Assembly (NCBI GenBank): GCA_009917695.1 | Contig: JAACJG010000008.1 | Coordinates: 124,001 to 188,000, forward strand | Reading direction: 5' to 3' | DNA length: 64,000 bases | DNA from: Candidatus Rifleibacterium amylolyticum | Lineage (GTDB): Bacteria; Muiribacteriota; Ozemobacteria; Ozemobacterales; Ozemobacteraceae | In this document: piece by piece, positions 6,849 to 28,999 of the stretch | Layout of the letters: every line of letters starts with the position of its first letter | Position numbering within the stretch: the first letter of the stretch is position 1 | Made by a program: the position numbers and the translations under genes | The notes under the pieces: model-generated | The model's input: the letters and a program-made list of their open reading frames with translations, nothing else | Databases searched by the model: none | Told to the model about the DNA's origin: nothing

Positions 6849-7774
6849 TGTACTTCACCCCTGGTAATGTTCATGAATACTGACTCAAGATTCTGCTGGC
6901 GGAACCGGAATTCGATAATCTTTCTGTCGGCCGCCACGATTTCTTTCAGCAGTGCAAAAGCTTCTTCGTCGTTGCCAGCATAGTCGAACTCGACACTTTT
7001 GCCGTTAACCACAAGATTCTCGACACCCGGCAGAAGAATCATGAAATTTGAAAACTCTTCGAGGCTCCCAACTGGCCTGATAATCAGGCGACGATGCGAG
7101 ACTTCGGCTTCGGTAATTTCCTCGATCGAACCAAACTTGAGCATGGCGCCCTGCTCGATGATCAGCGTCGAAGTGCAAATTTCGGAAAGCTCACTGAGAA
7201 TATGCGAACTGATGAGAATACCTTTGCCCTGACGACTCAGCACGCGCAACAGTTCACGCAGTTCTATGCGGGCGCGCGGGTCGAGACCGGCTGCCGGCTC
7301 ATCCATAAGAATAAAGGACGGGTCATGAATCAGAGCCCGGGCAATACTCACCCTTTGCTTCATACCTTTCGACAGTGCAGAAAGCAGCTTTTCTCGAATA
7401 TTAATGAGATTGGTGAATTCCATCAGATCGTGCACCAGCCCGCGCCGCCGCGCCGGTTTTATCGCGTAAGCTCTGGCAAAAAAATCGATATACTCGAATA
7501 CAGTCATGTCATCCTGCGTCGGCAGAGTGTCAGGTACAAACCCTATTTTCTCACGCGCCATCTCAGGATGGCTGACGATCGAATGTCCATCGAGCTCGAT
7601 ACTGCCGGCACTCGGTTCCTCGATGCTGGCCATCATGCGTAGAGTCGTAGTTTTACCAGCGCCATTGGGGCCGACGAAACCGGTAATATCGCCACCATTA
7701 AGCTGAAAATTCAGGCGCTTTACCGCATGAGTATCGCCAAAATTCTTACTGAGGTTTTTGACGCTTAAAATCAT
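6845..7774 (-). CDS. ABC transporter ATP-binding protein
   Basis: 309 residues with Walker A GPNGAGKT at 35-42, signature LSKGMKQ at 134-140, Walker B ILMDEP at 155-160, followed by GLDP and an H-loop (SSHILSE). The roughly 90-residue C-terminal extension is typical of ATPases serving ABC-2 exporters. ATG 7774 overlaps the stop of the upstream gene by 4 nt and the end overlaps the permease start by 4 nt. Together with the permease it should form an ATP-driven exporter at the inner membrane. Its position inside a MoxR/VWA operon suggests that export and VWA-complex function are linked. Confidence 0.93.
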   Translation of the reverse strand: MILSVKNLSKNFGDTHAVKRLNFQLNGGDITGFVGPNGAGKTTTLRMMASIEEPSAGSIELDGHSIVSHPEMAREKIGFVPDTLPTQDDMTVFEYIDFFARAYAIKPARRRGLVHDLMEFTNLINIREKLLSALSKGMKQRVSIARALIHDPSFILMDEPAAGLDPRARIELRELLRVLSRQGKGILISSHILSELSEICTSTLIIEQGAMLKFGSIEEITEAEVSHRRLIIRPVGSLEEFSNFMILLPGVENLVVNGKSVEFDYAGNDEEAFALLKEIVAADRKIIEFRFRQQNLESVFMNITRGEVQ

Positions 7775-9501
7775 GGCTGCGCCTCCTCTTTGAGAATGCC
7801 TATAACGTAAGACTCTTCTGTCTTTTCGGCTGAACTGTCGAGCGCCTGCACCAGAAATGGCGAGGTCTTTATTTTGGCAATGTAGCCTCCAGCCATAAGA
7901 TAGCGCTCAGGCGACTTGTCAAAATCGCGCAATCGCTTGAACCATGGTCCATTGAAGGTCTCCGCCATTGCGCCCGCCTTTTTCCCGGCGAAACGGCCTG
8001 TAGCTGTCAGCACAGCCTGGCGCCCGGCGCCGATATTAGATCCAACAAAGATTCTGCCATCGCTCACCGCCAGGGTAATGCTTTCGATATCTGAACCAAG
8101 GCCGTTGAGCAGTTGCAGATAGCCGTCCTGCCAGCTCAACCCGACGCGTTCACGTCTGGTCTGCAGGGCGCGCAAATGCATGCTGCGCTCTACTTTTGGC
8201 TTGATCCAGCCAGTCGCCAGATGCTGATCTTCATCGAGCACGATAAAGCGACCGCCATCGGCATTTCTGCCGTAATTGCTGCCATAGGTGTAGACTTCGG
8301 TCTGGTTGTCGAAGCGCAGTCCTTCCGGGCGGGAAGACGACGAAAACAGCGAGTAATTGGCGAGAGTCACTGCCCGATTGTTGCGCTCGTCGAGCAAAGT
8401 CAGCGCCTGCCGTTTTACCCGCAGCGTCGAACTCTCAAAAACGAGGTAATAGCCATAAATGAACATGCAGCAGATTGCCGAGGCCACCGGAACGGTAAGA
8501 AACACCAGAATCTTGCGCCCGAGACGATGCAGCACAAATACGTTAACCGGGCCGATAAGAAAGGCAAATATATAAACGATCACCATTAACCAGCGGGTCG
8601 AGAGCGTCTCGGTCTCTTCATAGGCAAAGCGCAGCGGCGAATCGCCTCTGAATTCATAGCTGGCAAACGCATCGCTGAGATAATTCGGAAATACCAGACC
8701 GGAAGGGCTCGACATCGACTTGATCAGATCAGCTTCAGCTTCGATCAATCGACCGAAACCACCCTCGTAAACTTTCAGATTGAATGGTTGATCAACGCGG
8801 TTCTGAGGTATTTGCACAAAATCATCAGGCACCTCGATACTGCCCATGGTCAAAAGACTGCCACCGGCGCGAACATAATCAAAAACCGCCCGGCGCACGG
8901 GATCTGGCATATCGTTGATGCTGCCGGCATAGAAAACCAGCATATGAAACTGCGAGTAACCAAGCCAGTTTTGATAAAGCTGAGCAAGGCTTCCCTCAAA
9001 CTGGTTCATTTCGACATTAAGAGAATTACCTGCACCGGAGCCCCCGAAAGCAGCTTCGAAATCAGTGCGCGAAATCCGCGAATCGACAAGTATCTGCTTG
9101 CGATGGTAATAACCCCGGTTACAGCGAAAATCGCGATGCAAGCTCTGTTCGCGCAGCGGCACGCCATCGAGTTCGACCCGCATGCCCGACGAGTAGAAAT
9201 CCATGATCGGTATCATTAAAGACTCTTCGCGAACTTCGCCAGCTGCGATCTTGAACCCGCGGGAAACATCTTCGAGGGTTCTCGAATACTGTGCGCGCAT
9301 TGAAAGCCTGACGTCACGCTCGCGGTTGGAACTGTTAGTTATTATTACCCGGCAGAATGCGTAACCGAAAAAGCTCTTCGGTTCAAGATCCGGCATGGCA
9401 GTAATACGAACGCCATCGTAATCTATTGTCTGGGCCTGAACGCTCGAAACAGCCCATAACACAACAAAAAAGAAACATAAAATGTGACGCAGTCTGATCA
9501 C
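7771..9501 (-). CDS. Exported membrane protein, probable ABC transporter accessory
   Basis: 576 residues with a clear signal peptide (helix 5-20, cleavage near VQAQT). An extracytoplasmic beta-rich N-terminal half contains a segment (GSINDMPDPVRRAVFDYVRA, then GGSLLTMG) resembling the GATase/GldG-like fold of ABC auxiliary proteins. Two adjacent helices lie around residues 305-350, and a C-terminal soluble part follows. The start is GTG at 9501, overlapping the MoxR stop as GTGA; a GGAGG lies about 14 nt upstream. It is immediately followed by the ABC ATPase and permease, which supports an accessory role for that exporter. I do not recognise a named family with certainty. Confidence 0.75.
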   Translation of the reverse strand: MIRLRHILCFFFVVLWAVSSVQAQTIDYDGVRITAMPDLEPKSFFGYAFCRVIITNSSNRERDVRLSMRAQYSRTLEDVSRGFKIAAGEVREESLMIPIMDFYSSGMRVELDGVPLREQSLHRDFRCNRGYYHRKQILVDSRISRTDFEAAFGGSGAGNSLNVEMNQFEGSLAQLYQNWLGYSQFHMLVFYAGSINDMPDPVRRAVFDYVRAGGSLLTMGSIEVPDDFVQIPQNRVDQPFNLKVYEGGFGRLIEAEADLIKSMSSPSGLVFPNYLSDAFASYEFRGDSPLRFAYEETETLSTRWLMVIVYIFAFLIGPVNVFVLHRLGRKILVFLTVPVASAICCMFIYGYYLVFESSTLRVKRQALTLLDERNNRAVTLANYSLFSSSSRPEGLRFDNQTEVYTYGSNYGRNADGGRFIVLDEDQHLATGWIKPKVERSMHLRALQTRRERVGLSWQDGYLQLLNGLGSDIESITLAVSDGRIFVGSNIGAGRQAVLTATGRFAGKKAGAMAETFNGPWFKRLRDFDKSPERYLMAGGYIAKIKTSPFLVQALDSSAEKTEESYVIGILKEEAQP

Positions 9502-10541
9502 TTGCCTGCTGCCTCCACCACCAGCTCGTCTGCCAGACCAAGGTCGGTCTCTTTAACTGTTTTGACGATCTCTTCAAGCAGAGTTGCTGTGGTAAGCCCC
9601 TCGAATCTTGCCTTGTAGTTGAGAAGAACGCGATGATTGAGCGCCGGCACCAGCACTTCACGAACATCTTCGAAGCCGACCGAAGGCCGGCCAGCCAGTA
9701 ATGCAACGCCACGCGCCGTTTCGGCAACCGCGATAGCAGCACGCGGAGAAGCGCCATATTGCACGAATTCCTGCACCTGACGACTGGAAGCCTTAGAGCC
9801 CGGACTGGTTGCGTTTACCAGGCGCGCAATATATTCGGCAACCGGGCCGGGAAGGTATATTCTATTCATTACATCGAACAGGCTTTCGAGCTCTTCGGCC
9901 GAGACATTGAACGAAGCTGTTGGCGGCTCACCATGCCGGCGCGAAAAGATGATCTCACGTAAAGTTTCAACGTCGGCAGACTTGACTTCGAGTTTGAAGA
10001 CAAAACGGTCGAGCTGGGCTTCTGGCAAAGGATAAGTGCCTTCGAGTTCGATGGGGTTCTGCGAGGCCAGCACGAAAAACGGCAACGGCAGCTTGCGAGT
10101 TGTGCCGAGCAGCGTCACCGATCTTTCCTGCATAGCTTCGAGCAGAGCAGACTGGGTTTTGGGCGAAGCGCGGTTGATTTCGTCAGCCAGCAGAATGTTG
10201 GTAAAAATCGGGCCGGGCTGAAAAACCATTTCGCGCTGGCCGGCCTGATTCTGCTGAAGAATGTGGGCACCGAGAATATCACCAGGCATCAGATCGGGGG
10301 TGAACTGGACCCGGCTGAACTTCAGACTGAGCAGTTCGCCGAGCGTTCGAATCAGAGCAGTCTTGCCAACTCCCGGCAGACCTTCGAGCAGGATGTGGCC
10401 GCGGCTTAATATGCCGATCAGCACCATTCGATGCAGGTCAGAACGACCAATAAGAATACGGTCGAGTTCCTTGAGAATTTTGTGAGCTTTGGCGCTGGCC
10501 GCTGCAAGTTCAGACTGAGATACCAGTGTTTGCTGTTTCAT
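9498..10541 (-). CDS. MoxR-type AAA+ ATPase
   Basis: 347 residues. Walker A GLPGVGKT at 54-61, Walker B ILLADE at about 116-121, the MoxR hallmark ASPKTQSALLEAMQE directly after, and sensor 1 ASQNPIELEGTYPLPEAQLDRF are all present. The C-terminal lid domain is complete. MoxR ATPases act as chaperone-like remodelling machines that work with VWA partners, and the cluster provides three (DUF58, BatA-like, dual-VWA). The start ATG has GGAG 8-10 nt upstream and overlaps the preceding gene by 4 nt. Confidence 0.95.
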   Translation of the reverse strand: MKQQTLVSQSELAAASAKAHKILKELDRILIGRSDLHRMVLIGILSRGHILLEGLPGVGKTALIRTLGELLSLKFSRVQFTPDLMPGDILGAHILQQNQAGQREMVFQPGPIFTNILLADEINRASPKTQSALLEAMQERSVTLLGTTRKLPLPFFVLASQNPIELEGTYPLPEAQLDRFVFKLEVKSADVETLREIIFSRRHGEPPTASFNVSAEELESLFDVMNRIYLPGPVAEYIARLVNATSPGSKASSRQVQEFVQYGASPRAAIAVAETARGVALLAGRPSVGFEDVREVLVPALNHRVLLNYKARFEGLTTATLLEEIVKTVKETDLGLADELVVEAAGK

Positions 10542-12076
10542 TTCTGTCTCCGCTCGGTTGGAACTTTTCTTTCAAAATATCTTTTTACGGCACTACGGTG
10601 CTTAGGCAAGATTACATCAGATTCACCGCCGCTTTTGTCTGATTTCTGCCAGTCGACCGGCCCTGAAGAGCCCTGCCCTTCTGCCGTGTCGATCTGCGGC
10701 GCCGAAATTGCCATGCCGATTGCCACCGAATCTTCGAGATCGGTTGAGGCAGGAGTCGGCAGAGCCTCATCCTTGAATTTAAGACTGTGTTCTGAGCTCT
10801 GACGGTTGAAATTCAGGGGGGCAGTGCCACCGTCGCGACCAGCCTGGCCGCTGGGGCTGCCAGATTGAGGGTCTACAACCATTATCCCTGGCTGACCATC
10901 CTGCGAACCGGAACCTGAACCGCCCTCTCCCTGCTGGTCACCAGACTCTCCGCTTGCGTCACCGCCTTCGTCAGCCGGTGCAATCACCAGATCCGCACCG
11001 GAACCGGGAGCAAGGTCGGCCTCGGTAGCCGGTCGCAGGCGTCCTTCCTGCTTGAGCTTCTCGTAGGTTTTGCGATCGAGCAGGCGGGCCTTAACCAGCT
11101 TTTCAGCGGCAGCGCGCATTTCTTCAGCACGCTGCTGCATGTATTCCTGCAATTGCTGTGCTGCTTCAGCGGCAGCTTCTGTTGATCCTTCGCCGCCTTC
11201 ACCGGCCTGCTGCATTTTATTTTCGAGCGAATCTCCACCTGGCTGCTTCATGCTGGCAGCGTCCAGGCCGCATTCTTCGAGTTTATCACGCAGAGCGTCA
11301 AGAGCCTGCTTCATCTTTTCCTGGCTGTCAGCGTTTTTCAGCTGATCTGCCAGGCTTTGCAAAGTCTGCAGGTTTTCCTGTTCTGACAGCATTTTTTCGG
11401 CGCCAGCAGCACTGTCTTTGCGCATTTTTTCCTGAAGCTGATCGAAAGCTTCGAAAGTCTTTGATGGGTCATTGCGGTCAGAAGCACTGATAATCTGGTC
11501 TATGGTCTCTTTAAGTTCATCTGCTTTCTTCTCATCGATCAGACCGGCTTCTTCAAGAGCTTCAACCTGAGCCATGGCGTTCTGCTGCATTTCCTGGAGA
11601 TCGAGTCGCGGATCGCGGTCTCCGGTTGCCTGACGAACCGGAATAACGACACTGAGCGCCAGGAAGAGCAGTGAAACCAGCAAAGCCGGCAGTCGCCGGT
11701 TCAGCTTGAGCTGCAGTCGAGGAGACTTCAGTGAACCCTGCCGATTTTTCCAGGAATGGTCGCCAGTTTCGAATTCGGCCAGCAACATACCACCACTCGC
11801 GTTATGGCTGTCGATCAGTGCCATGGCACGCTCGTCAGCCAGCTGACTGCGAAAGGCTACGGCGAGAGCAACCAGCAGGCAGACCGGAATTCCTGCCAGG
11901 CTGAAGCCGACGAAATCGATACTGGCAAGGCGAAGCTGGCGCAGGAGCAGAAAGAGAAAACCAGCGATGAAATTGTAGAAAGTCATGAAACGCAAAGCCA
12001 GCAGCAAAGAATAAGACAAAAGATAACGCATTCTCAGAGTTTTAAGTGCCGTTAAACTGTCTTCTGAAGCCTTCAT
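10538..12076 (-). CDS. Membrane protein with acidic coiled coil, first gene of MoxR operon
   Basis: 512 residues. Two N-terminal helices (about 17-47 and 54-76) and a third at about 130-147 precede a long Gln/Glu-rich coiled coil (about 155-330), a low-complexity Gly/Ser/Asp linker, and a conserved-looking end HRSAVKRYFERK. This architecture matches the large coiled-coil proteins (DUF4175-like) often found beside moxR and DUF58 genes, whose C-terminal R-x-Y-F motif is common. The match is by layout and motif, not a proven family assignment. It is the first gene of the operon. No good Shine-Dalgarno precedes ATG 12076; the nearest AGGAT is about 14 nt away. Confidence 0.8.
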   Translation of the reverse strand: MKASEDSLTALKTLRMRYLLSYSLLLALRFMTFYNFIAGFLFLLLRQLRLASIDFVGFSLAGIPVCLLVALAVAFRSQLADERAMALIDSHNASGGMLLAEFETGDHSWKNRQGSLKSPRLQLKLNRRLPALLVSLLFLALSVVIPVRQATGDRDPRLDLQEMQQNAMAQVEALEEAGLIDEKKADELKETIDQIISASDRNDPSKTFEAFDQLQEKMRKDSAAGAEKMLSEQENLQTLQSLADQLKNADSQEKMKQALDALRDKLEECGLDAASMKQPGGDSLENKMQQAGEGGEGSTEAAAEAAQQLQEYMQQRAEEMRAAAEKLVKARLLDRKTYEKLKQEGRLRPATEADLAPGSGADLVIAPADEGGDASGESGDQQGEGGSGSGSQDGQPGIMVVDPQSGSPSGQAGRDGGTAPLNFNRQSSEHSLKFKDEALPTPASTDLEDSVAIGMAISAPQIDTAEGQGSSGPVDWQKSDKSGGESDVILPKHRSAVKRYFERKVPTERRQK

Positions 12077-13849: not shown

Positions 13850-14476
13850 TCAGTGAAACACCTTGAACGGCCCGTTCGCATTAGCCGGGGGCGGAGTAAG
13901 TGACCGGTTAAAAGTCGCCCGTGGCCGATTGTCCTTGCGTCTGTTCGGCTTTTCGTAGCGAACCGGCTCACGCGAAACCACAACTTCTTTTTTCTTGCGC
14001 TCTACTGTAAGAGTGTCAGGCGGTCGCCCATTTTCTTCAAGATCGAGTATGGTCTCGATGCTGCGCGGCGGATTGCCGGTGTCAAGCCAGTCCCAACCCT
14101 GCTGCGCAAGCCAGGCTAGTCTGGTGTTGTCCTGATAATAGCCTTCATCTATTTTGTCGCCCCAGTAATAACCAAGCGCCATGCGAACATCGCCGGTCAC
14201 CTCGGCAATCACGCCCAGGCGGTAAAAAGCCCAGGTCACCTTCTCCATATCAACTTCGGTGAGCTTGCTCTCCTGGTTGAAGATCATCGAATAAAGCTCA
14301 TGCGCTTTCTTGAAATTTTTCTTCGACAGCGCATATTCTGCCTGGCTCTTGTATTTGGCATAACTGTAACCGCCACAACACCCGGAAACAGACAATATCA
14401 CCAGAGCCAGCATCAGAAATGCCGGCAAAAACATCAATCTGCGCCTGTTTACGGCTCTTTTATCAGGGTGTTGCAT
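13850..14476 (-). CDS. Lipoprotein with TPR-like helical region
   Basis: 208 residues. A hydrophobic signal (FLPAFLMLALVILSV) ends in the lipobox V-S-G-C at about residues 30-33, so export and lipidation are predicted. The mature part begins with helical repeats resembling one or two TPRs (YALSKKNFKKAHELYSMIF) and ends in a proline/arginine-rich tail. The gene overlaps the preceding pseudopilin gene by 14 nt and is the last gene of the second pseudopilin triad. It could be an envelope partner of that tip complex. No named family was recognised. Confidence 0.8.
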   Translation of the reverse strand: MQHPDKRAVNRRRLMFLPAFLMLALVILSVSGCCGGYSYAKYKSQAEYALSKKNFKKAHELYSMIFNQESKLTEVDMEKVTWAFYRLGVIAEVTGDVRMALGYYWGDKIDEGYYQDNTRLAWLAQQGWDWLDTGNPPRSIETILDLEENGRPPDTLTVERKKKEVVVSREPVRYEKPNRRKDNRPRATFNRSLTPPPANANGPFKVFH

Positions 14477-15002
14477 TTATTGCACTCAATGGCTTCCAGA
14501 AACGATCCGGCCCGACCAGGGCAGGAGGATAAATACGTGCCGACCACTCAAAATCGACGGCCTGAGCGGCAGGATCTTTGAAAAGCATGTTCACCAGCAT
14601 GCTGCCAGCATCATATTCGAGAGAAAAATCGGCAAGATACTCGGCGGCAAATCTTTGTTTGCGGCCACCCGACTCAGTCCTGACAAATACCTTGCCGGTT
14701 GCCAGGTCTTCGACAGCGTAATCGACCACCTTGCCACCATGCGTCTGCACCTTGAATTCAGTAGTGCCTTTCCAGATCTTTCCACTCTCAGGCACCAGCA
14801 CGATGCGCTCGCTATCTGATCTCGCAATGTCGTTGCGCATCGTTGAAACGATCCAGGCGGCCTGATTCGCGGCAACGGCGTTAAAACTGCCACGATGAAC
14901 GTTCGAAGCGCCGCGTGTCATCGCGATGATTACGCCACCAGCGATAACCACCACTATACCAACGGCAAACACCAGTTCGGTAAAAGTAAAAGCTCTTTTC
15001 AC
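14463..15002 (-). CDS. Pseudopilin, GspJ-like (second triad)
   Basis: 179 residues. The prepilin leader MKRA is followed by FTFTEL, with Glu at mature position 5 and an unbroken hydrophobic helix. Ala stands at -1 instead of the usual Gly, which prepilin peptidases can tolerate. The globular part is about 140 residues and beta-rich. The start is GTG at 15002 with GGAA 6-8 nt upstream, two bases after the stop of the preceding pseudopilin. Within the triad it is the second Glu5-containing subunit, and its position after a GspI-like gene suggests the J role. That assignment is inference. Confidence 0.8.
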   Translation of the reverse strand: MKRAFTFTELVFAVGIVVVIAGGVIIAMTRGASNVHRGSFNAVAANQAAWIVSTMRNDIARSDSERIVLVPESGKIWKGTTEFKVQTHGGKVVDYAVEDLATGKVFVRTESGGRKQRFAAEYLADFSLEYDAGSMLVNMLFKDPAAQAVDFEWSARIYPPALVGPDRFWKPLSAINATP

Positions 15003-15004
15003 AA

Positions 15005-15451
15005 TCAGTTCCCGCTTACGAAAGTCGAAAGTTCATAATTTTTGATCTCTTCGCCAACCTGTTCCTTGCTTTTATAGTTGAGCTCAAGCGACATGATCTT
15101 GCCGGTTTCAGCACGTGGAGCCGGTGGATACCGCTTGACACTGATTTTACCATCCAGATCGAGATATTCGGGGAAACTCCCGACCTGCACCTCGACCTTT
15201 ATCGCATTGCCAATGCTTATCAGCTTTCCACTCTCGGCTTTGACCGGATAGCTGCCATCAGCAGGAAACCAGCCTTTATTTTCGATCTGTTCGAGAATCT
15301 CGACCGCCAGCTGACTGACCCTGATTTCATCTGCCGACAAAGTGACCTGTTTATGAGACGTGCCCATCAGTCCCCATAGCGGCACCATTGCCGCCACCAT
15401 TATGCCGCTGGCAATAAGTATTTCGAGCAGACTCAGGCCGCGCCTTCTCAT
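15005..15451 (-). CDS. Pseudopilin, GspI-like (second triad)
   Basis: 148 residues. Short leader MRRRG then LSLLEILIAS, a canonical cleavage site (Gly -1, Glu +5) and N-terminal helix. The globular domain is compact (about 110 residues) as in GspI/PilV-type minor pilins. ATG 15451 overlaps the end of the large GspK-like gene by 4 nt. Needs prepilin peptidase and assembly ATPase encoded elsewhere; none is in the window. Confidence 0.85.
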   Translation of the reverse strand: MRRRGLSLLEILIASGIMVAAMVPLWGLMGTSHKQVTLSADEIRVSQLAVEILEQIENKGWFPADGSYPVKAESGKLISIGNAIKVEVQVGSFPEYLDLDGKISVKRYPPAPRAETGKIMSLELNYKSKEQVGEEIKNYELSTFVSGN

Positions 15452-17580
15452 ATATCGCCTCCGGCCGGCCCGATTACGACGCCGACATATTTACTGGTAA
15501 ACGCCGGGTTGACCGGGTCGAGATTGATATTGTAGGTAAGACTGCCGCCACCGGCGATGTTGGCCGGATTAAGCGTGTTGGCAGCTATGCCCCCAACCAG
15601 ATTTATCGGAGAGTTGGGATTGGAATATCTGATTTCACCAGCAGTTTTGTCGAGGGCCATCAGATAAGCCAGAGTGCTGTTTGTCCCGTTGTTCTTGATA
15701 GTGATTGCGCCCTTCTCGGCAGTGATCATCAGGGGTGGTTCAAAGGCAGAATCAGCCTGCTCGAAGGTTCCGACCGTGATCGGGCCGTCAACGATCAGAT
15801 TGCCGCCGGTGTGCCGCCCAAGACCATCCGCCAGCGTCATACCGGCATTGTTGCCGGTCACGACCTTGAGCACGGCATTACCAAGATTCAGACGAAGTGA
15901 ATTGTCATGACAGAAGTGCTCTTTGAGCAGTGCAAATGCGTCTTCACCAGCGCCGACCTTAACTTCGTAACAGATGCGGCGGGCCATGCCCAGCGTTGTA
16001 TCATCGCTATCAGCGATTTTGTCGATCTCGATATTGCGGGTGTCTATTCCATTGATTTCTTCAAGGAAAAGCCTTTCGCTGGTCAGCGGTGCGGCGTCAC
16101 TCGGCGGGATATCGATTTTCTGGTTGGTTGAAGTATATTGCGCGATCATATCGTAAATCTCGTTATAAGAGCAGTCATCGACCTTGCTCATAATGGTGTA
16201 ATAGCAAAGACTGCCGTCGGTGCTCAACCATGGAATCGAAAGGAAAAGCGGCTCGAGCTCATGCATATCCTGAACCCCAAGCGCAGATGGGCCATTCGGC
16301 ATATGAACAAGTTTGTTTTCGACAAACAGAGTCGACATGCCGGCAATATTCGAAGCCTGGCTGGTAGCCGCTCTATACTCATTAGAACCCATCGAAATCA
16401 TGGCACCGACAGGAACTTTTGTCGAGGCGTCGGCAAGATAACAGATTTCGAGGAAACGGTCTTTGACATCACCGGTCACACGGGTGTGACTGATCATTGA
16501 AGCCCCGTTATCAGTGGCGCTGGCACCAAAAAGATGCAGGCATGTGCTGGCCCATCGGCTTTTGGCGGTTGCTGGCGGGTATCTGGTAAAATCGCGTTTC
16601 AGAACCTTTTCCCATAACTGGCCGTGTGTGCCACTGTAAACGGTGTCGGCAAAACCCCAGCGCGCTACGCTGAAGCACACCTGATGAGTGCCAACCGGCC
16701 AGGGGCCAAAATTAAAGATCAGCGTAATCGGCTTGTCGGCAGAGGGAAAATACGAATGAAAATTCTGGCCGTAAGCACCAGTTCCAGCTGCGCGATTCAA
16801 CAACAGCGGACCCCCGCCGAGATAAACCCAGCCCCGTTTTTTCCAGACATCTTCGGGTGTGCTTGAGGTGGTTGGCTCACCATTGATCAATACCAGAGGA
16901 CGCGGCGAATTTGCGATAACTTCGCCAGTATCTGGTGTGGCGATGGTAACTGTGTTGAATTTGGTTTCGTCGCCGCCAGAAGCATCACGCAGATAAAGAT
17001 TGAACTTGGTTATCGGCAGCGGAAACGGCATGACAACCCGGAATGGGCGGGTCTCTTCCCAGGTTTCGACGGCCTTGTCAACCTGAACTGATACAGAGAT
17101 CGTGATTTTGCCCGATTTTTCGAAGCTCAGGTAAAAGCCTTTGCCATCGTCGAGCGATTTGACATCGCTGACCTCAAAATTTGTCTGAACGCTTACTTCA
17201 TAAGGCTGATTTCCGGTAAGTCCTGCGCGCAGATCGCTGATACCGATCTGCGGAAACCAGTTGGCAATTATATTGTCTCTGATACCTGAAGCGCTGTTTT
17301 CGCGGAAAGCCGCGCGGAGAATCTGTCCGGAAGAGTTGGAGTCAGTTCCCGGATCGACAAGATCGAGTTTCATCCGGCCGATGATATAGCGGCTTATTGA
17401 CTGGGCGCATTTCATCGCGCGTAAATGCTTGAGCAGTTCGCGACTTTCGTTGAATTTGCCGCGGACCAGGTGATTGTAAGACATGATGAGAATGCTCAGA
17501 ATGAATATGCCACCCAGCACAACGAACAACACTATTCCGGCACGGTTGTTGTTGCTGTTCATCTGACCGTTTTTATTCAT
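15448..17580 (-). CDS. Large pseudopilin without Glu5, GspK/PilX-like (second triad)
   Basis: 710 residues from ATG 17580. The leader ends NNNRAG and the mature helix starts IVLFVVLGG. There is no Glu at mature position 5, as in GspK and PilX. The soluble part is far longer than GspK (about 300 residues) and contains beta-rich regions plus a C-terminal segment rich in Ala, Asn and Gly (about residues 590-710). The chosen start has GGAG 9 nt upstream and overlaps the TAXI gene end by 8 nt; a Met 15 codons upstream in the same frame is less likely. It may form the tip of a pseudopilus. Confidence 0.8.
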   Translation of the reverse strand: MNKNGQMNSNNNRAGIVLFVVLGGIFILSILIMSYNHLVRGKFNESRELLKHLRAMKCAQSISRYIIGRMKLDLVDPGTDSNSSGQILRAAFRENSASGIRDNIIANWFPQIGISDLRAGLTGNQPYEVSVQTNFEVSDVKSLDDGKGFYLSFEKSGKITISVSVQVDKAVETWEETRPFRVVMPFPLPITKFNLYLRDASGGDETKFNTVTIATPDTGEVIANSPRPLVLINGEPTTSSTPEDVWKKRGWVYLGGGPLLLNRAAGTGAYGQNFHSYFPSADKPITLIFNFGPWPVGTHQVCFSVARWGFADTVYSGTHGQLWEKVLKRDFTRYPPATAKSRWASTCLHLFGASATDNGASMISHTRVTGDVKDRFLEICYLADASTKVPVGAMISMGSNEYRAATSQASNIAGMSTLFVENKLVHMPNGPSALGVQDMHELEPLFLSIPWLSTDGSLCYYTIMSKVDDCSYNEIYDMIAQYTSTNQKIDIPPSDAAPLTSERLFLEEINGIDTRNIEIDKIADSDDTTLGMARRICYEVKVGAGEDAFALLKEHFCHDNSLRLNLGNAVLKVVTGNNAGMTLADGLGRHTGGNLIVDGPITVGTFEQADSAFEPPLMITAEKGAITIKNNGTNSTLAYLMALDKTAGEIRYSNPNSPINLVGGIAANTLNPANIAGGGSLTYNINLDPVNPAFTSKYVGVVIGPAGGDI

Positions 17581-18625
17581 CGGCAGCGTCTCCGGTTTCG
17601 ACGGCAGCATGCCTGCCCTTAGCATTTTTTTCGATCCAGGCCAGAGTGCCCGGATGTATTGGTACGCCAGCTTCCTGCATTATTTTTAGCGCGACTTCAG
17701 GATCGACAGGAATATTGCCAATTGCCTGATGATGCAATCTGAGATGAGAAGCGCCCTTGGCTATGCTGTCGATGATAAGCCCTACCGCTTCATCAGAAGT
17801 TTCGACACTTGCTACCAACATATTTGGCAACCCAACAGTGTGTATCTCTGGCTGAGATTCTCCATAAAACCCGGCAGCAATGTTGACTCGTCTGGAGGTG
17901 GAAACCTTCTGCAGGATTTTTTCGATCTCTGCATCGCTGAGGCTTACCAGGGAACAGCCATGAAAGTTGACTGCATCAGAGACAGTGCGATTGGGCATGC
18001 CGGCCTGGATGGTGGCATAACCGATACTGCCATTGGCAAGCGAGTTAAGCACAGCCTCGATCGGGATCTCAGCGCTGGTCTTGCGTCGGTAAAGGCCAAG
18101 TGCGTCGATGATTTCGAGCGAAGTGCGGCGAGTCGAAGAATTAAGCTGACCAAGAAAGACATTGAGTTGCCCCGGAAAACTCTCTCCTGGGTCAAAGCGT
18201 TCAGGTGCGCGCAGAATATGTACGACATCGTTCCATAGTGGCCATACCAGGCGCAAGGGCGAAGAGGCGTTTTCAGCCATGTTTTCTTTGATGATGCGGC
18301 TCTCTGCCATTGCCAGCATGACCTTGCCCTGAATTATCAGACGCACGTTGTCGATTGAACCGTTGGTCTCAATGGGTTTGAAAACTCCCTCACTGCCGAG
18401 CTGTGAATTGATCCATTTTGACAAGACATTACCGACAGGATAATAGGTTCCAAGCCGGTTACCGGTGCCAATCAGCTGAAATGACGACGAATAGAGTTGA
18501 GGGGGAATCGGAGCCTCGGCGCGGGGCGGTTCTGGAACAGCAAGCAGAAGAAGCGCCAGAGTTGCCATCACCAGGGCAATCGGCCAGACAAAGCTTGGCA
18601 AAATTCCGCGTCTGTTGTTGTTCAT
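17573..18625 (-). CDS. TAXI-family solute-binding protein, orphan
   Basis: 350 residues. An N-terminal hydrophobic segment (FVWPIALVMATLALLLLAV) acts as signal or anchor. The motif IGTGNRLGTYYPVGN at about residues 51-65 is the hallmark of TAXI TRAP-type binding proteins, and the rest follows that two-lobe fold (ETNGSIDNVRLI, PEIHTVGLPNMLV). No TRAP permease gene is nearby. It is instead coupled by an 8-nt overlap to the pseudopilin genes downstream. ATG 18625 has no Shine-Dalgarno and lies 6 nt after a -10 element. It may have been recruited as a sensor or surface protein. Confidence 0.85.
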   Translation of the reverse strand: MNNNRRGILPSFVWPIALVMATLALLLLAVPEPPRAEAPIPPQLYSSSFQLIGTGNRLGTYYPVGNVLSKWINSQLGSEGVFKPIETNGSIDNVRLIIQGKVMLAMAESRIIKENMAENASSPLRLVWPLWNDVVHILRAPERFDPGESFPGQLNVFLGQLNSSTRRTSLEIIDALGLYRRKTSAEIPIEAVLNSLANGSIGYATIQAGMPNRTVSDAVNFHGCSLVSLSDAEIEKILQKVSTSRRVNIAAGFYGESQPEIHTVGLPNMLVASVETSDEAVGLIIDSIAKGASHLRLHHQAIGNIPVDPEVALKIMQEAGVPIHPGTLAWIEKNAKGRHAAVETGDAADE

Positions 18626-18631
18626 CAGCTA

Positions 18632-18660
18632 AGTGTATCGTTTTTATTTATATATGGCAA
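18632..18660 (-). promoter_or_regulatory. Sigma70-type promoter, probably leaderless, for TAXI/pseudopilin genes
   Basis: TTGCCA (18655-18660) and TACACT (18632-18637) are separated by 17 nt on the minus strand. Only six bases (18626-18631) separate the -10 from ATG 18625, so transcription should start at or beside the A of the start codon. No Shine-Dalgarno exists in that space. Confidence 0.6.
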
Positions 18661-18684
18661 GCATGAAAACTGAGCCGGTAATGG

Positions 18685-19152
18685 TTATGGCACGCTCTCT
18701 CCTTCGACTTTATAGCCATAAGTAAGCCAGCCCGGAATGCCCGCCTGAAACTCCAGAATGCTCATATAACCTAGCTTGCGGAGTTCTCCAATCATTTCTA
18801 CAATATCGCCACCTTCGACACCTTTATAGATGATGATCAACCGGTCTTTCGCCGGCAGCTGACCGGTCATGCTGGCAATAACCACATCATCGCAAACAAC
18901 CAGAGCGCCGGGAATCTTTAAAGCACTCTTCTGCGCTGCAGTTCGGCATTCGATCAGACAAACATCACCAGACTTCAGCAAAATAGCCAGAGTATCCGGC
19001 GAAATAACCGATCTTGGAATATCGAAAGTGACCGAAGCAAGTCCGCAGGTTCCTTCTGGACAATTGCCCACACAGGCAAAAGATCTGGCATAACTGCCGG
19101 CGACTGCCACAAGCAGAAGTAGAAGAATTGCATTATTTCTTATTCTTGGCAT
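18685..19152 (-). CDS. Secreted rhodanese-like protein lacking the catalytic Cys
   Basis: 155 residues with a signal peptide (ILLLLLVAVAGSYA). The first mature residues carry CVGNCPEGTC, a short Cys-rich loop. The rest follows the rhodanese fold: ISPDTLAILLKSGDVCLIECR, then RLIIIYKGVEGGD, then LRKLGY and the WLTYGY end. The active-site loop position after the strand IIIY carries no Cys, so it is unlikely to be a sulfurtransferase and may only bind. ATG 19152 overlaps the end of the ankyrin gene by 20 nt. Confidence 0.75.
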   Translation of the reverse strand: MPRIRNNAILLLLLVAVAGSYARSFACVGNCPEGTCGLASVTFDIPRSVISPDTLAILLKSGDVCLIECRTAAQKSALKIPGALVVCDDVVIASMTGQLPAKDRLIIIYKGVEGGDIVEMIGELRKLGYMSILEFQAGIPGWLTYGYKVEGESVP

Positions 19153-19840
19153 CGAATTGCACTAACATGTTTATCAAAAGCAGATTGCCCAGTGCTTTTG
19201 CGCGCTCAATCGGCCTGGTACCATCTGCGGCCACGGCCTCCAGCTCCGCGCCATGCAACAGCAGAACCTGAGCGGTAATATGGGGAAGTGGTCCACCAAC
19301 CAGATGCAACGGAGTTTCGCCCGCCTTGTTGCGAATATTGGGGTCGCCACCGGCCAGCAGAAGATTGGCGAGCACACCGACAAGACCATTGCGGGCCGCG
19401 ATATGCAAGGGGGTTTCGCCCTTGTCATTCTGCTGGTTAACGTCTACACCAGCTGAAGCCAGCATGGCGGGAACAGTAAGCGGGCAGATGGTAACAGAAC
19501 TTCTTGGTGGTTCAGGATCGAGACAAAGAGCGCCCATATTGACGGCATAATGCAGGGCATTATTGCCGGCATTGCAAGTCTGGGAGGCCACGGCACCCTT
19601 TTTCAGCAGGGCCTCTACCATTTCAACGGCTCCCAGAGAACAGGCATAATGCAACGCGGTCATGCCAGAACTATCGGTGGCAGTAAGATCAGGTTGCGTT
19701 TCGATAAGCCGGTTGAACATTTTGAGATCGAGACTGCGCACAGCAATATGCATGGGATCTGCATGAACTGGAGCAGCAACCAGCATTATCAGCAAAACCA
19801 CGACAAACCCAGATCTAGCATTTATGCCAACAATGTCCAT
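19133..19840 (-). CDS. Secreted ankyrin-repeat protein
   Basis: 235 residues from ATG 19840, which has GGAG 6 nt upstream; an in-frame Met 4 codons earlier lacks one. A signal peptide (SGFVVVLLIMLVAAPVHA) precedes about five ankyrin repeats, the clearest being SGMTALHYACSLGAVEMVEALL, KGETPLHIAARNGLVGVLANLL and AGETPLHLVG. It is periplasmic or secreted and probably a protein-binding scaffold. It sits between two other small exported proteins of the pseudopilin region. Confidence 0.85.
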   Translation of the reverse strand: MDIVGINARSGFVVVLLIMLVAAPVHADPMHIAVRSLDLKMFNRLIETQPDLTATDSSGMTALHYACSLGAVEMVEALLKKGAVASQTCNAGNNALHYAVNMGALCLDPEPPRSSVTICPLTVPAMLASAGVDVNQQNDKGETPLHIAARNGLVGVLANLLLAGGDPNIRNKAGETPLHLVGGPLPHITAQVLLLHGAELEAVAADGTRPIERAKALGNLLLINMLVQFDAKNKK

Positions 19841-19879
19841 CAAAAACTCCATTCAATCAAGATCTACCGCGCCAGCACC

Positions 19880-20653
19880 TCAGTCGGTAACAGGACCCAA
19901 CTGAAATTCCGGCAGAGGCGGGGTCGGTGACGGCTGGCGAAATGCGTCATTCTGTCGCAGCACATGTTCACCACCCTCGACAAGAGGCCCAAAATCAAGC
20001 AGAAGCGGGCAGGCAGTATTTTTCTCGAACCTTATGATATAGCCGCCAACAGGAGAAATTATTGGATCAACAATGATCGTCGGCGAAACCGTTATTTCAT
20101 CGATGAATATTGCAGTGCCCTCAGCGTCGGCCACTCGCAGAAACACCTTGAGTTCTTCGCGCAGCACACAACGATACAGCTGATACAACCAGAAATTAAG
20201 ATCTATCTGATTGATATAACTGCTGCGGGCGCCAGAAACAATTATCATTGCCGTGTAAGATTTTTTGCCGGCTTTTTCTGCAGCCTTCATCAGAGCATCG
20301 ACGTCCTGTGCCGATCTAACCAGCTCTGCCTCGGGCAAAATAGCAGCATCACGCCAGATTAACTCAACCGACTGTTCAAGAACAGCTCTGGTTGGCGAAG
20401 CCATTATATTCTGCTCGTCACCGTCAAAGGCACCGACGAAGGTCAACGGTAACACTGGCAGGTTACAAGCAGACAGCTCAGTGTGAAACTTTTCGCGCAA
20501 TTGATACATGGCGTCTGAGAGGGCAAAAACACCTGGAGCTCCGGCAAAATCTTGTGTTTCGACAGTTCGCCAGACACTGGGCTCCATCGTACAGGCGAAC
20601 AAAGGATTGGCTGACAACAAAATCGATAAAAGAATTATAAAAAATGATCTCAT
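19880..20653 (-). CDS. Exported hypothetical protein
   Basis: 257 residues. The signal peptide MRSFFIILLSILLSANPLFAC ends in a Cys, but the -2 residue (Phe) is not standard for a lipobox, so lipoprotein status is uncertain. The mature part is mixed alpha/beta with a strand-rich C-terminal half and a proline-rich tail. ATG 20653 overlaps the preceding pseudopilin stop by 4 nt. I recognise no family; the coupling suggests a role linked to the first pseudopilin triad. Confidence 0.7.
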   Translation of the reverse strand: MRSFFIILLSILLSANPLFACTMEPSVWRTVETQDFAGAPGVFALSDAMYQLREKFHTELSACNLPVLPLTFVGAFDGDEQNIMASPTRAVLEQSVELIWRDAAILPEAELVRSAQDVDALMKAAEKAGKKSYTAMIIVSGARSSYINQIDLNFWLYQLYRCVLREELKVFLRVADAEGTAIFIDEITVSPTIIVDPIISPVGGYIIRFEKNTACPLLLDFGPLVEGGEHVLRQNDAFRQPSPTPPLPEFQLGPVTD

Positions 20654-21423
20654 GGGATTGCAAAGCTTCCGGTCGGAAAGACCCTTATTTCATCGAGTTT
20701 TCGATCAACAATCGAAGCTGTCATGCGTTCGGTAATCATGGCCTTCTGCCTGGATCGAGGGTTTTCCATAACCAGCTCGATCGTAAGAAAGATCGCCGGG
20801 CGGCCAATATCGGTAGTCTGCGTTGCCGCGACGGCAAAAACGCCGATTGCTGCGACATCGTCCAGTGTCATGGCAAAATCACCTTCGGTATGCCCGAACT
20901 CAAATTTGTCGAGATCGGGAGAACCTACGTCTATGGGGGTATGAGCCGGCATATCATCCCACTTACCGTTCATATACATTTTAAGTTTCTGGTCTTTACA
21001 ATCAAGGCCGACGCCTTTCCAGACACCCTTGCGCTCAGTCTGACCAAGATCGACCTGCTCGGGAACATAAGGAGAAATTATCGAAAAATAAAGCACGCCA
21101 TTATTGGTAGAACTGGCAAGGTTATTGAACCAGGCCTGATTGACTACAATTGGCCTGTCTGCCGTTCTTTGCGTGGCTCCATTCGGGGCAATGGCATAAG
21201 CATGATTGCTGCGTTCAAGCAGGTCTTTTAGCCGCAGCAGAAAAGTCTGTGCGTGCTTTTGCCGCTGAATCCGCCAGGATCCGGTCTCAAAACTGGCCCT
21301 GCTGTATTCGAAAACACCAAAAACGCTGAGCATGAACAAGGCAAAAACACTGGTGGCAATAAGAATTTCGACCAGGGTAACAGCAGAACGATAAGTAATT
21401 GTTCTCATTATTTGGACTTTCAT
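20650..21423 (-). CDS. Pseudopilin, GspJ-like (first triad)
   Basis: 257 residues. The mature helix starts VTLVEILIATSVF with Glu at position 5; Ala precedes it in place of Gly. About 200 residues of beta-rich globular domain follow, the size of GspJ. ATG 21423 is one base after the preceding stop; an ATG six codons in (21408) would give a shorter leader and neither has a clear Shine-Dalgarno. Third member of the first triad. Confidence 0.8.
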   Translation of the reverse strand: MKVQIMRTITYRSAVTLVEILIATSVFALFMLSVFGVFEYSRASFETGSWRIQRQKHAQTFLLRLKDLLERSNHAYAIAPNGATQRTADRPIVVNQAWFNNLASSTNNGVLYFSIISPYVPEQVDLGQTERKGVWKGVGLDCKDQKLKMYMNGKWDDMPAHTPIDVGSPDLDKFEFGHTEGDFAMTLDDVAAIGVFAVAATQTTDIGRPAIFLTIELVMENPRSRQKAMITERMTASIVDRKLDEIRVFPTGSFAIP

Positions 21424-21424
21424 A

Positions 21425-21997
21425 TCATAGTTCTGAAGTCTGGCTCGCGTCCAGGCTCATTTTATAATGTCCGACATTGTCGCGGCCTGCCATCTGAACA
21501 TGAACGTCAATTTCAATAAAAGCTCGGTTAAAGTCCTCAGACGACCTGAGATTGAAGGTCGTCGACCAGGTTGCAATATTCAATGGCTCGGTGAAACCCC
21601 AGGCAGCGTCATCCCCGGGCGACAGATGATGAAGAATATCGTTAGTGCGACCGCTGTATACGCCAGTAAACTTCTCAAAGGGCGAAATGCTTTCAAATGG
21701 TCTGATTGGCTCAGGAACACTGGTATCGCCAGATTCTCGCCGTTTCTTGTAAACGTGATAACGATAGGAGCGCAGAAAAAAGTCAGGAAACCGCTTAACC
21801 TTGAACAGTGCGATATTTTGAATGCCGCGGGCGAAGAATTCTGCCTGTAAATGATCGATCTGCAGCCTGGTAACATGGGTAGTCTGAGAAAACGTGCGAA
21901 GATATACGATTCCCAGGACGAGCAGAATGGCAGAAAAAGCCAGCACAATCACCAGTGCCATGCCGTTCCGCCTTGAATTGTCAGACCTGGTATGCAT
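21425..21997 (-). CDS. Pseudopilin without Glu5, GspK/PilX-like (first triad)
   Basis: 190 residues. Leader MHTRSDNSRRNG is followed by MALVIVLAFSAILLVLG, a prepilin-like helix without Glu at mature position 5. This is the pattern of PilX and GspK. The soluble part is about 150 residues. It abuts the preceding pseudopilin gene exactly (21997/21998). Within the triad it is the only member lacking Glu5. Confidence 0.75.
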   Translation of the reverse strand: MHTRSDNSRRNGMALVIVLAFSAILLVLGIVYLRTFSQTTHVTRLQIDHLQAEFFARGIQNIALFKVKRFPDFFLRSYRYHVYKKRRESGDTSVPEPIRPFESISPFEKFTGVYSGRTNDILHHLSPGDDAAWGFTEPLNIATWSTTFNLRSSEDFNRAFIEIDVHVQMAGRDNVGHYKMSLDASQTSEL

Positions 21998-22555
21998 TTA
22001 ACTCTCCATGTCGGCTACAAAGCTGACCAGAGTAAATTCGCGCTCATCTGTCATTCCACCTACCGGCTTTGCTGTCACCGTGATTTTTATGATCTTGAAA
22101 GGGTTGCTGCCGCCAGGAAAAGATTCTGCCGGTCTATCTCTGAAAATCCAGGTGGAAGGCGATGCGGGATTGTAATCCAGATTGGGGAAAGACAGCTCCA
22201 TCAGCGAGTCAAATACAATTCTCTGGCGCTTCAGAGTAGCATGGATACGATAAGTATGCTTTTCGATCTGCACCTCGTCGCCGAGAATAACTCCTTCTAT
22301 CGGATTGTTGAAGGTATATTCGTTGCCTCCTGCTGCTGTCAAAAAAGAATCAAGAGACCTATACGGCATATTCATCAGCTTGTTCATGCGATCGACCAGA
22401 ATCTGAATAGACTCGACCTGGCGGAAATCAGCAACGGTGCCACGATGACCGTAGCTGATTACGCCAGCCGCCGAGAAGGCAGCGACGACAAGAATAAGAA
22501 ATGAGAGCATTATCTCGGTCAGAGTTATTCCGGCGTTTCTGCGAATGTTGCTCAT
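21998..22555 (-). CDS. Pseudopilin, GspI/PilV-like (first triad)
   Basis: 185 residues. MSNIRRNAG then ITLTEIMLSFLILVV is a standard prepilin cleavage site (Gly -1, Glu +5) and helix. The soluble part is about 150 residues. ATG 22555 overlaps the end of the 1462-residue secreted protein by 4 nt, so the two are translationally coupled. It is the first gene of the first pseudopilin triad. Confidence 0.82.
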   Translation of the reverse strand: MSNIRRNAGITLTEIMLSFLILVVAAFSAAGVISYGHRGTVADFRQVESIQILVDRMNKLMNMPYRSLDSFLTAAGGNEYTFNNPIEGVILGDEVQIEKHTYRIHATLKRQRIVFDSLMELSFPNLDYNPASPSTWIFRDRPAESFPGGSNPFKIIKITVTAKPVGGMTDEREFTLVSFVADMES

Positions 22556-26973: not shown

Positions 26974-28155
26974 TCAGTATTCTCTCTCACGTTGAACCGG
27001 GTCTTTTTCGACGTCCAGATACTCTCTGAGCACCTGCATAAAGGAATTCCTGACGAGCTCTGGAACTTTATAGCGCTCGAAAAGCTGGCGGGCCACCCAG
27101 GGCGTAAGGTCGGTGCCGCCGGTCAGAAAAGGCCTGCCACCGGTAAAATCAGCTACTTTCTCGGGCATGTAGTTGCGAAATTCAAGATACTGTTTCAAAT
27201 TACTGCGCATACCCAGGGAACGCCCGACCACAAGATGTTCGGGCGGCAGTGGAGAACCGTCAGGGCCGGTGAGATTCTTCTCAAGATATGGGTTGATGGT
27301 CAGATTGGCAAATGAATGAAAAAGCGAGGCGGAAACAACATCCGGAGCTTCATCAACAGCGGGAATCATTGCCAGCTTGTCTTTGCGAACCCGGGAACGC
27401 ATAGCGAAAGACGAGTCCATCACTACAGCAATTTTACTCTCCTGGGCGGCCTGCTGAATCAGAGAAGTAATTTCGTCTTTGATCTTTTTCAGCCTGGCAT
27501 CGGTTTCTTCGCCAGTCAGATAAACTGCTGTAATTGCCTTATCCTCGATTTTAACGATCTGATCGGCAATTTCTGCTATCGAACTGTTCAGCTCATCAAT
27601 CTGCTGTTGCAACTTTTCGGCCTGAGCCTGGCGCTGTTTCTCCGTGCCACTGTCGGTCAGGTGTTGCTGAATGGCTTCGAGTCGTCGCATGATATCGGCC
27701 TTTCTGGCCCGGTAAATTTTCTCTGAATTGCGATCGGTCGGACTCTGCCTCTCCAGTTCCTTGTATGCAGTCTGAAGTTCGATCTTGTTACGTTCGAGTC
27801 TTTCAAGATCACCCGGAGCAAGTACCTGTAGAGCTCGAGCCTTCTGTTGCATCAGAGCAAAACGGTCCTGCATGAGTTTCTTCTGCTTTTCACGCAGAGG
27901 CGCACATTCTTTTTCTCCTGCTTCACGCGCCTTTTTGAGGTCGGCGACAACTTTGTTAATATCTTTATCAAGCTTTTTATCGCGAAAGAACCGACCATTG
28001 GAATAATCAAAAGCAGCCATATCAGGATGCAGCATCAGCAGAATTCTGGTATCGACGCTGGCCCAGCCGCCTTCTGTTTGGCAATCAGCGATTGCAGGCG
28101 CAAACAGGCTCAGTATAACTGTTGCAATTACAATTAAGAACAGGTTGGTTTTCAT
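26974..28155 (-). CDS. Exported coiled-coil protein, Skp/OmpH-like (copy 1)
   Basis: 393 residues with signal peptide (LIVIATVILSLFAPAIA). An early motif VDTRILLMLHPDMAAFDY is followed by a long charged coiled coil (about residues 60-200) and the Skp-like end of such a coil (SKIAVVMDSSFAM at about 245-257). A roughly 140-residue extension follows. The layout resembles OmpH/Skp periplasmic chaperones but is much longer. It shares its N-terminal motif with the next gene upstream in the operon, so the two are probably paralogues. ATG overlaps the upstream stop by 4 nt. Confidence 0.75.
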   Translation of the reverse strand: MKTNLFLIVIATVILSLFAPAIADCQTEGGWASVDTRILLMLHPDMAAFDYSNGRFFRDKKLDKDINKVVADLKKAREAGEKECAPLREKQKKLMQDRFALMQQKARALQVLAPGDLERLERNKIELQTAYKELERQSPTDRNSEKIYRARKADIMRRLEAIQQHLTDSGTEKQRQAQAEKLQQQIDELNSSIAEIADQIVKIEDKAITAVYLTGEETDARLKKIKDEITSLIQQAAQESKIAVVMDSSFAMRSRVRKDKLAMIPAVDEAPDVVSASLFHSFANLTINPYLEKNLTGPDGSPLPPEHLVVGRSLGMRSNLKQYLEFRNYMPEKVADFTGGRPFLTGGTDLTPWVARQLFERYKVPELVRNSFMQVLREYLDVEKDPVQREREY

Positions 28156-28907
28156 TTATTCTGCCCCTTTGTCCGCTCCTCGAGCAATTTTATGGCTTCA
28201 AGTCTGACGTCGGTAACGCCAACAGGAAAAATCTGCGCATCGACACCCAGTTGCCCTGCCCAGAATTCGCTGGCTTCGGCCAGCCACTCATGTATTCGCG
28301 CATCGGGTTTGTCATTTTTCCAGATTCCGGCATGCAGGTTCTTTACCAGCAATTCTGAGCGCAACCCGCGTGGATCAGCAACCGGCAGGAAGTCGCAGAC
28401 ATCGATGACCAGTTCAGTCTGGCGTCTCTCTTTCAGCTGCTTGATTACGGCTCTGACATCAGACATAATCTGGTTGACCTGCGGGTAGATCGAAGCGGCA
28501 GGAGTAACTCCAGGTTGCCCGGGCACCAGACGGGCCATATATGCCCGCATCTTCATTTCGCCGACACGCTTCTCTTTTTCGCGTTTTTCGGCAAGAAAGT
28601 TGCGCTCGACCAGCATACGATCGGGCAGCGGAACATCTTTCAGCCTTTCCCGCAGTATCTGGGGAGCTTGCGACAGCCATTTATCAATGTTCTGAATTTC
28701 GGCAACCAGCTCGTCGACGCCACGCTGGCCACCATCAACATATTCTGACGGGGTATTGCGGAAGCGGTTCGTGGCGTAATCGAACTGAGCAAACAAAGGA
28801 TGAGCAAGAAAAAGCAGCCTGGTATCAAGCATTACCGGGTCACCGGCTAGCAAAATACTCGGCAGACAAAACAAAAACGCGACCACCAGTAAGTTTCGGT
28901 TCGACAC
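28152..28907 (-). CDS. Exported helical protein, Skp/OmpH-like (copy 2)
   Basis: About 251 residues with signal peptide (NLLVVAFLFCLPSILLAG). MLDTRLLFLAHPLFAQFDY near the mature start matches the motif of the 393-residue neighbour. A helical region with many Lys, Arg and Glu follows, and ELVIDVCDF is the counterpart of the Skp-like VxDxxF end. Two GTGs are possible: at 28916 the Shine-Dalgarno GAGG would overlap the codon, while at 28907 it is 8 nt upstream, so 28907 is chosen. It begins the export operon that continues to the pseudopilins. Confidence 0.72.
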   Translation of the reverse strand: MSNRNLLVVAFLFCLPSILLAGDPVMLDTRLLFLAHPLFAQFDYATNRFRNTPSEYVDGGQRGVDELVAEIQNIDKWLSQAPQILRERLKDVPLPDRMLVERNFLAEKREKEKRVGEMKMRAYMARLVPGQPGVTPAASIYPQVNQIMSDVRAVIKQLKERRQTELVIDVCDFLPVADPRGLRSELLVKNLHAGIWKNDKPDARIHEWLAEASEFWAGQLGVDAQIFPVGVTDVRLEAIKLLEERTKGQNK

Positions 28908-28999
28908 TGCTGGCACCTCTAATTCTGATATATATACAGTTACACCCGTCCTATTATCATCTTAACAAGGTAGACAATATGCGGCAATGAAAAATATTT

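Follow-up and report, generated by a model that had tools for sequence, protein, structure and literature searches.

The stretch of DNA analysed here, hereafter the window, comprises 64,000 nucleotides of the genome of Candidatus Rifleibacterium amylolyticum (5.39 Mb in 35 contigs; the window is C8:124001-188000, that is, contig JAACJG010000008.1), and it carries two operons that each contain three genes for prepilin-like proteins (pseudopilins). The six open reading frames (ORFs) lie on the minus strand, in each triad two proteins carry Glu as the fifth mature residue (Glu5) and one does not, and the genes overlap or abut, all of which agrees with a preliminary description of the locus. The proteins are referred to below as I-, J- and K-like after GspI, GspJ and GspK, K being the member that lacks Glu5. 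Exported proteins, which that description had also placed in both operons, were recognised by signal peptides, a lipobox and a TAXI-type solute-binding protein (Table 1); further signal peptides are visible in the products of 19133-19852 and 18685-19152. Other sites in the genome are given by contig and kilobase, and individual stretches of this and related genomes by L numbers.

Table 1. Features of the two pseudopilin operons, in positions of the window.
Feature	Position	Strand	Characteristics
Lipoprotein closing the triad 2 operon	13850..14476	-	Lipobox VSGC; 14-nt overlap with triad 2 J
Triad 2 J-like minor pseudopilin	14463..15002	-	A/FTFTELVFAV, Glu5, Ala at -1; GTG start, 4-residue leader
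Triad 2 I-like minor pseudopilin	15005..15451	-	G/LSLLEILIAS, Glu5, Pro19; XpsI E 5.4e-4, ComGE 0.0029, PilV 0.15; orthologues found
Triad 2 large K-like pseudopilin	15448..17580	-	G/IVLFVVLGG, Val5 instead of Glu5; ~500-aa head beyond the pilin-like part
TAXI/NMT1-like solute-binding protein	17573..18625	-	Pfam NMT1_3 2.8e-37, TRAP_TAXI 2.5e-33; upstream of triad 2
Exported protein, next gene after triad 1 J	19880..20653	-	Orthologue follows J in L144, L145, L149, L150 and L151
Triad 1 J-like minor pseudopilin	20650..21423	-	A/VTLVEILIAT, Glu5, Ala at -1; GspJ N-terminus E 0.037; orthologues found
Triad 1 K-like minor pseudopilin	21425..21997	-	G/MALVIVLAF, Ile5 instead of Glu5; GspK N-terminus E 3.7e-4
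Triad 1 I-like minor pseudopilin	21998..22555	-	G/ITLTEIMLSF, Glu5; ComGE N-terminus E 0.017
Giant Sec-exported protein, 1462 aa	22552..26940	-	Conserved centre, C-terminal PKD/Ig-like; signal peptide visible
OmpH/Skp-like exported coiled-coil protein, triad 1 module	26974..28155	-	Weak OmpH match, E 0.0037; signal peptide; conserved beside the giant gene
Exported protein p254, triad 1 module	28152..28916	-	Conserved order p254-OmpH-giant

Triad 1 is a member of a small-K type in which the order is mostly I-K-J. The gene order p254, OmpH/Skp-like protein, giant, I, K, J and a 257-aa exported protein was conserved around it in relatives; in two of these (L152 and L153), the I-K-J block lies upstream of p254-OmpH-giant instead. 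Orthologues of the I-like protein adjoin the giant gene or the giant's module in relatives, and its paralogue class matched PilV, GspI and ComGE in a profile search. The absence of Glu5 from K was kept in 10 of 10 orthologues, and nine of the 17 members of the small-K alignment matched the N-terminus of GspK. An AlphaFold2 model of K, built on a 17-sequence alignment (predicted local distance difference test, pLDDT, 80.5), shows an alpha1 of 62 residues, followed by another helix and an antiparallel sheet of three strands; as modelled, this is a fold of the minimal type IV pilin kind, without a large helical domain.

The giant belongs to a family of Sec-exported proteins of 1,400-1,600 aa that travels with the small-K type of triad. 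Eleven relatives were found, mostly in Candidatus Riflebacteria and one in a Candidatus Ozemobacteraceae, and the members have a central region in common; 6 of the 12 gave weak hits to PKD. Its own genome encodes four copies, all of them beside small-K triads: the copy in the window, one at C10:150 kb, one at C4:17.6 kb (triad at C4:13 kb) and one at C4:148.9 kb (triad at C4:145 kb). Neighbours related to the OmpH/Skp-like protein occur at C10 and C4 as well. We propose that the giant is either a tip-borne partner of triad 1, analogous to PilY1, or its cargo. Upstream of the triad 1 module, window positions 32240-34372 encode a protein that combines GAF and class III nucleotide cyclase parts with a zinc ribbon at its C-terminus and is 84-91% conserved in L144 and L149. 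A set of three genes, MacB-like by eye and encoding a protein of 236-239 aa between two membrane-type proteins of ~410-434 aa, was seen in L144 (18217-21532) and L145 (12084-15348); it follows a rhodanese-like gene in relatives and is absent from the window.

Triad 2 is a member of a large-K type with a TAXI-type binding protein encoded ahead of the triad. An alternative start at 17625 is possible for K; the start at 17580, which overlaps the TAXI stop by 8 nt, is plausible. No family in Pfam or NCBIfam matched this protein; K-like proteins of ~700 aa were present in every family genome searched, with up to 12 matches each and four in its own genome. The AlphaFold2 model (20 sequences, pLDDT 79.2) begins with alpha1 at residues 12-75, short helices and a three-stranded sheet at 129-183, and continues in a head of ~500 residues that resembled no known fold when the model was compared with the PDB by Foldseek. 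In seven relatives (L156-L161 and L174), the TAXI gene precedes K, and I and J come next wherever the stretch reaches them; the K orthologues in this context, also seven, all lack Glu5, and Ala at position -1 of J is likewise kept in its orthologues. No tripartite ATP-independent periplasmic transporter (TRAP) permease was recognised among the scanned neighbours of the TAXI gene. The earlier view that each triad has an exported partner of its own is thus upheld, by fixed neighbours in relatives and by the four giants beside small-K triads. MoxR genes lie near the window triads (window 7771-12076) and adjoin the C10 small-K triad (L112 597-4702; 44% identical), and the C10 MoxR gene is followed by DUF58 and BatA/VWA genes.

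The two triads were then found to belong to a large genomic complement. At E<=1, the N_methyl family (PF07963) matched the genome 126 times, mostly in adjacent pairs, and related genomes of the phylum 30 to 137 times each. Triads were sought in the stretches around these matches, so that a triad without an N_methyl hit would escape, and the first pass scored 150 of 167 candidates; within the stretches lay 66 chains with a total of 127 prepilin-like ORFs carrying Glu5. The triads with a non-Glu5 third gene number at least 46, of which 44 were identified automatically and at least two (in L071 and L110) by eye; the small K of L086 was read directly from the sequence, and one of the automatic triads (C6:306 kb) belongs to a machine locus. 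This number supersedes the two alternative tips envisaged in the preliminary description. Across the 44 triads, residue 5 of K is Leu, Ile, Val, Met, Thr, Phe or Ala and never Glu, and the mature length of K falls into two groups, ~130-340 and 380-990 aa, the large K proteins being the majority. The genes overlap (median gap, -4 nt) and are arranged as KEE in 18 cases, EEK in 15, EKE in eight and KxEE in three, where E denotes a Glu5 gene. Pro at mature position 19 is commoner in the first Glu5 gene, being found in 27 of 44 first versus 6 of 44 second genes. At E<=0.1, the 40 I-class proteins of the genome gave 24 matches to PilV, 24 to ComGE and 23 to GspI, and the 41 J-class proteins gave 20 to GspJ, 21 to PRK10557 and 15 to ComGF. 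An I/J/K- or PilV/W/X-like composition, as originally suggested, is supported. A chance origin of the non-Glu5 members was considered and rejected, since a non-Glu5 prepilin-like ORF (score >=4.9) is the third gene in 40 of 44 Glu5-pair cassettes versus 2.0% of 505 other genes, ~45 times the base rate. Beside the triad of L107 (C10:16.8-20.3 kb), a YSYADYLTWDDD-type protein of 208-214 aa is encoded three times in tandem, with 80-92% identity between the copies.

Similarities among the three classes were compared over 43 triads after removal of the N-terminal 30 residues. The I-I, J-J and K-K similarities co-vary, with Mantel r of 0.48 for I-J, 0.24 for I-K and 0.19 for J-K (P<=0.002), values that are due in part to recent duplicates, for example those at C2:353/356 kb. 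In 22 of the 43 triads, the triad with the most similar K also has the most similar I, and in 21 it also has the most similar J, where one would be expected. These data indicate that the genes of a triad are duplicated and retained together, as expected of cognate complexes. Furthermore, of the 20 Sigma70_r2 genes, 8 are found no more than 3 kb from a triad, compared with 1.5 expected (P 7e-5; triads and flanks make up 7.7% of the genome), and the three such genes that were scanned have the region 2/region 4 architecture of extracytoplasmic function sigma factors, one with a FecR-domain neighbour. This enrichment fits, without showing it, a separate switching of individual triad sets. The same data bear on the notion that the triads are decayed or neutral duplicates of a single minor-pilin operon without separate functions. 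Recent tandem copies such as those at C2:352 and C2:355 kb (62-74% identical) and the high overall divergence are what such a process would leave; however, the ORFs are intact, I, J and K are inherited together, sigma-factor genes are enriched nearby, and the order and partners of triads 1 and 2 are conserved across several genera. Neutral duplication, already disfavoured by this last observation, is in our judgement very improbable.

The preliminary description had placed the machine that would use these proteins elsewhere in the genome, and indeed no T2SSE, T2SSF or secretin match was found within the window; the machine closest to it is Tad-like and lies at C8:235-244 kb. It had also assumed a single machine, which is not supported in that form, as T2SSF matches revealed about six platforms of the PilC/GspF type, five of them ~390-430 aa long and the other 323 aa, as well as three pairs of the Tad type. 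With at least 46 triads for about six PilC/GspF-type platforms, the triads outnumber the platforms several-fold. All six assembly ATPases tested scored best as PilB and not as GspE, and the one at C6:136.9 kb, which adjoins a PilT-type ATPase and a pilin-like gene, passed the PilB cut-off. PilB, PilT-type ATPases, a PilC-type platform, PilM and secretins of the PilQ/GspD type represent the type IVa pilus (T4aP) parts of the genome, and a machine locus at C6:302-310 kb unites an ATPase, a platform, four Glu5 pseudopilins and a small K. Altogether, the available machinery looks more like that of type IV pili than of type II secretion. The PilT-type ATPases number about nine (350-394 aa; on C2, C5 and C6) and are in several cases encoded in adjacent pairs. 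A different arrangement was seen in L090 (C4:260696-280695), where seven near-tandem Glu5 pseudopilins of 231-276 aa, unlike the triads, lie beside a secretin and a GspF/PilC-type gene.

The reading that we favour, with a probability of roughly 0.6, is that the triads encode cognate minor-pilin tip (priming) complexes that serve as alternative caps for shared type IV pilus-like machines. In GspIJK, a staggered I-J pair recruits K, which caps the filament (PMC4471445); XcpX, the GspK of Pseudomonas aeruginosa, is placed at the top (PMC6211770); and both PilX and GspK lack Glu5 (PMC7541494). By analogy, the I- and J-like proteins with their Glu5 would form the staggered base of the complex and K would dock on and cap it, needing no Glu5 because no subunit would lie above it. 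Each complex would start and then top filaments of machines encoded elsewhere, so that many different tips could be fitted to few machines, and the role of such tips may be adhesive, sensory or in export. In triad 1, where the head of K is minimal, the functional part would be the separate Sec-exported giant carried on the tip, as PilY1 is on PilX; in triad 2 it would be the ~500-aa head within K, working with the TAXI-type binding protein. An H/FimU adaptor would be either shared or unneeded, being missing from the triads.

It should be noted that several observations weigh against this reading. The six window proteins, searched against Pfam and NCBIfam with curated cut-offs as the test of membership, gave only N-terminal, sub-threshold family matches: GspK scored 20.1 bits against a cut-off of 130 with triad 1 K, GspJ 13.8 against 64.85 with triad 1 J, and XpsI 20 against 150 with triad 2 I. 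None of the six was placed in an unrelated family, an outcome that would have spoken against the preliminary description; however, no triad or giant protein passed a curated cut-off for GspI/J/K, PilV/W/X, PilY1 or Verru_Chthon. Pfam revealed neither a PilX N-terminal domain in either window K nor a PilY1 (Neisseria PilC) domain in the giant. The triads have two Glu5 members, not three, and thus no H/FimU adaptor; because of this and of the missed cut-offs, membership of the GspI/J/K or PilV/W/X families is not claimed. Foldseek comparison of both K models with the PDB returned no significant match, a result weakened by the long alpha1 and by the few full-length minor pilins in the PDB, so the pilin-like interpretation of K rests on the order of secondary-structure elements and not on a fold hit; profile searches of PDB sequences with the K-A, K-B and giant alignments likewise gave nothing credible. 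According to published work, bacterial pilins invariably have Gly at position -1 (PMC4471445), and Gly is present there in 43 of 44 K proteins, but Ala takes its place in 13 of the 44 proteins of the I class and in 13 of the 44 of the J class (K, 1 of 44). Finally, several platforms exist, and the sharing of machines is inferred from the tip-to-platform ratio.

Some of these observations concern a type II secretion role, in which the triads would form pseudopilus tips that, as adaptors selective for their substrates, drive these substrates, the exported neighbours (giant, OmpH-like and TAXI proteins), through a secretin. Small K proteins resemble GspK, the exported neighbours are fixed partners, and the machine locus at C6:302-310 kb has a composition that would suit such a system. 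The GspH-I-J-K tip is also alike in having Glu5 in I and J, none in K, and K as its cap (PMC6211770, PMC4471445, PMC7541494); it differs in that the triads lack H, are ordered I-K-J or K-I-J, lie apart from machine genes and match at the N-terminus below cut-off, and in that triad 1 K has no room for the large helical domain of GspK. The preference of all six ATPases for PilB, the many PilT-type ATPases and the missed GspI/J/K cut-offs argue against type II secretion, which we regard as unlikely. PilY1 has itself been described as an analogue of type II secretion substrates (PMC7541494), and the pilus-tip and type II readings therefore overlap.

A further comparison was made with the Verru_Chthon cassette (proteins A-D: TIGR02600, TIGR02598, TIGR02599 and TIGR02596). 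This cassette is described from Verrucomicrobia; we know of no function for it, and no paper describing it was found among those searched. It is likewise multi-copy and combines one very large protein with Glu5 prepilin-like proteins, and weak N-terminal matches to it were obtained: protein C by 12 of 41 J-class proteins, and protein A by six proteins in the genome, in five cases the N-terminus of a triad gene. If the triads were of this kind, they could be standalone envelope assemblies, that is, short stubs or membrane-anchored complexes never loaded on pilus machines. Membership, considered for the J-class TIGR02599 matches, was rejected; the best protein A match in the genome reached 16.3 bits versus a cut-off of 332.3. 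Moreover, the I/J/K composition is kept together with co-inheritance, and to our knowledge there is no precedent for an assembly below the level of a machine, without platform or ATPase. Standalone assemblies are for these reasons considered decidedly improbable.

The known systems closest to cognate tips on shared machines are sets of minor pilins. Myxococcus xanthus has three fimU-pilV-pilW-pilX-pilY1 clusters, each with a PilY1 and minor pilins, for a single T4aP machine, and cluster 3 alone suffices for pili (PMC7541494); these clusters are differentially expressed (PMC13190605). Several tip sets per genome, a PilX without Glu5 and a Sec-exported giant encoded beside the pilins are features in common (PMC7541494); however, there are three sets versus at least 46, FimU is present there and missing here, the PilY1 domain was not found in the giant, and many Riflebacteria triads have a large K instead of a giant encoded separately. 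In Synechocystis, pilA5-pilA6 and pilA9-pilA12 have been proposed as different, condition-specific tip complexes (PMC12288463), but these comprise a few operons only and no giant partner. No paper describing pilin amplification in Riflebacteria was found among those searched. What sets the present case apart is that minor-pilin sets, proposed to form tips, come in two designs and reach a number of at least 46 per genome.

It is an open question how a single pilus machine comes to do different jobs by way of its minor pilins, and studies so far have dealt with about three sets per genome. If the cognate-tip reading is true, a genome in which at least 46 sets are inherited as units, several of them with a fixed partner that can be recognised, would make this question a comparative one, in which the specificity among I, J and K, the choice of the tip to be loaded and the ligands of the heads could be read from paralogues; it would also offer a testable role for many unannotated proteins of a little-studied phylum. 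We tentatively suggest, as a possibility that falls somewhat short of even odds, that Riflebacteria carry ~46 or more cognate tips per genome, of two designs (a small K with a giant, or a large K with its own head), some probably switched by sigma factors from adjacent genes, on a few shared machines, such that one engine may be put to dozens of binding or export tasks.

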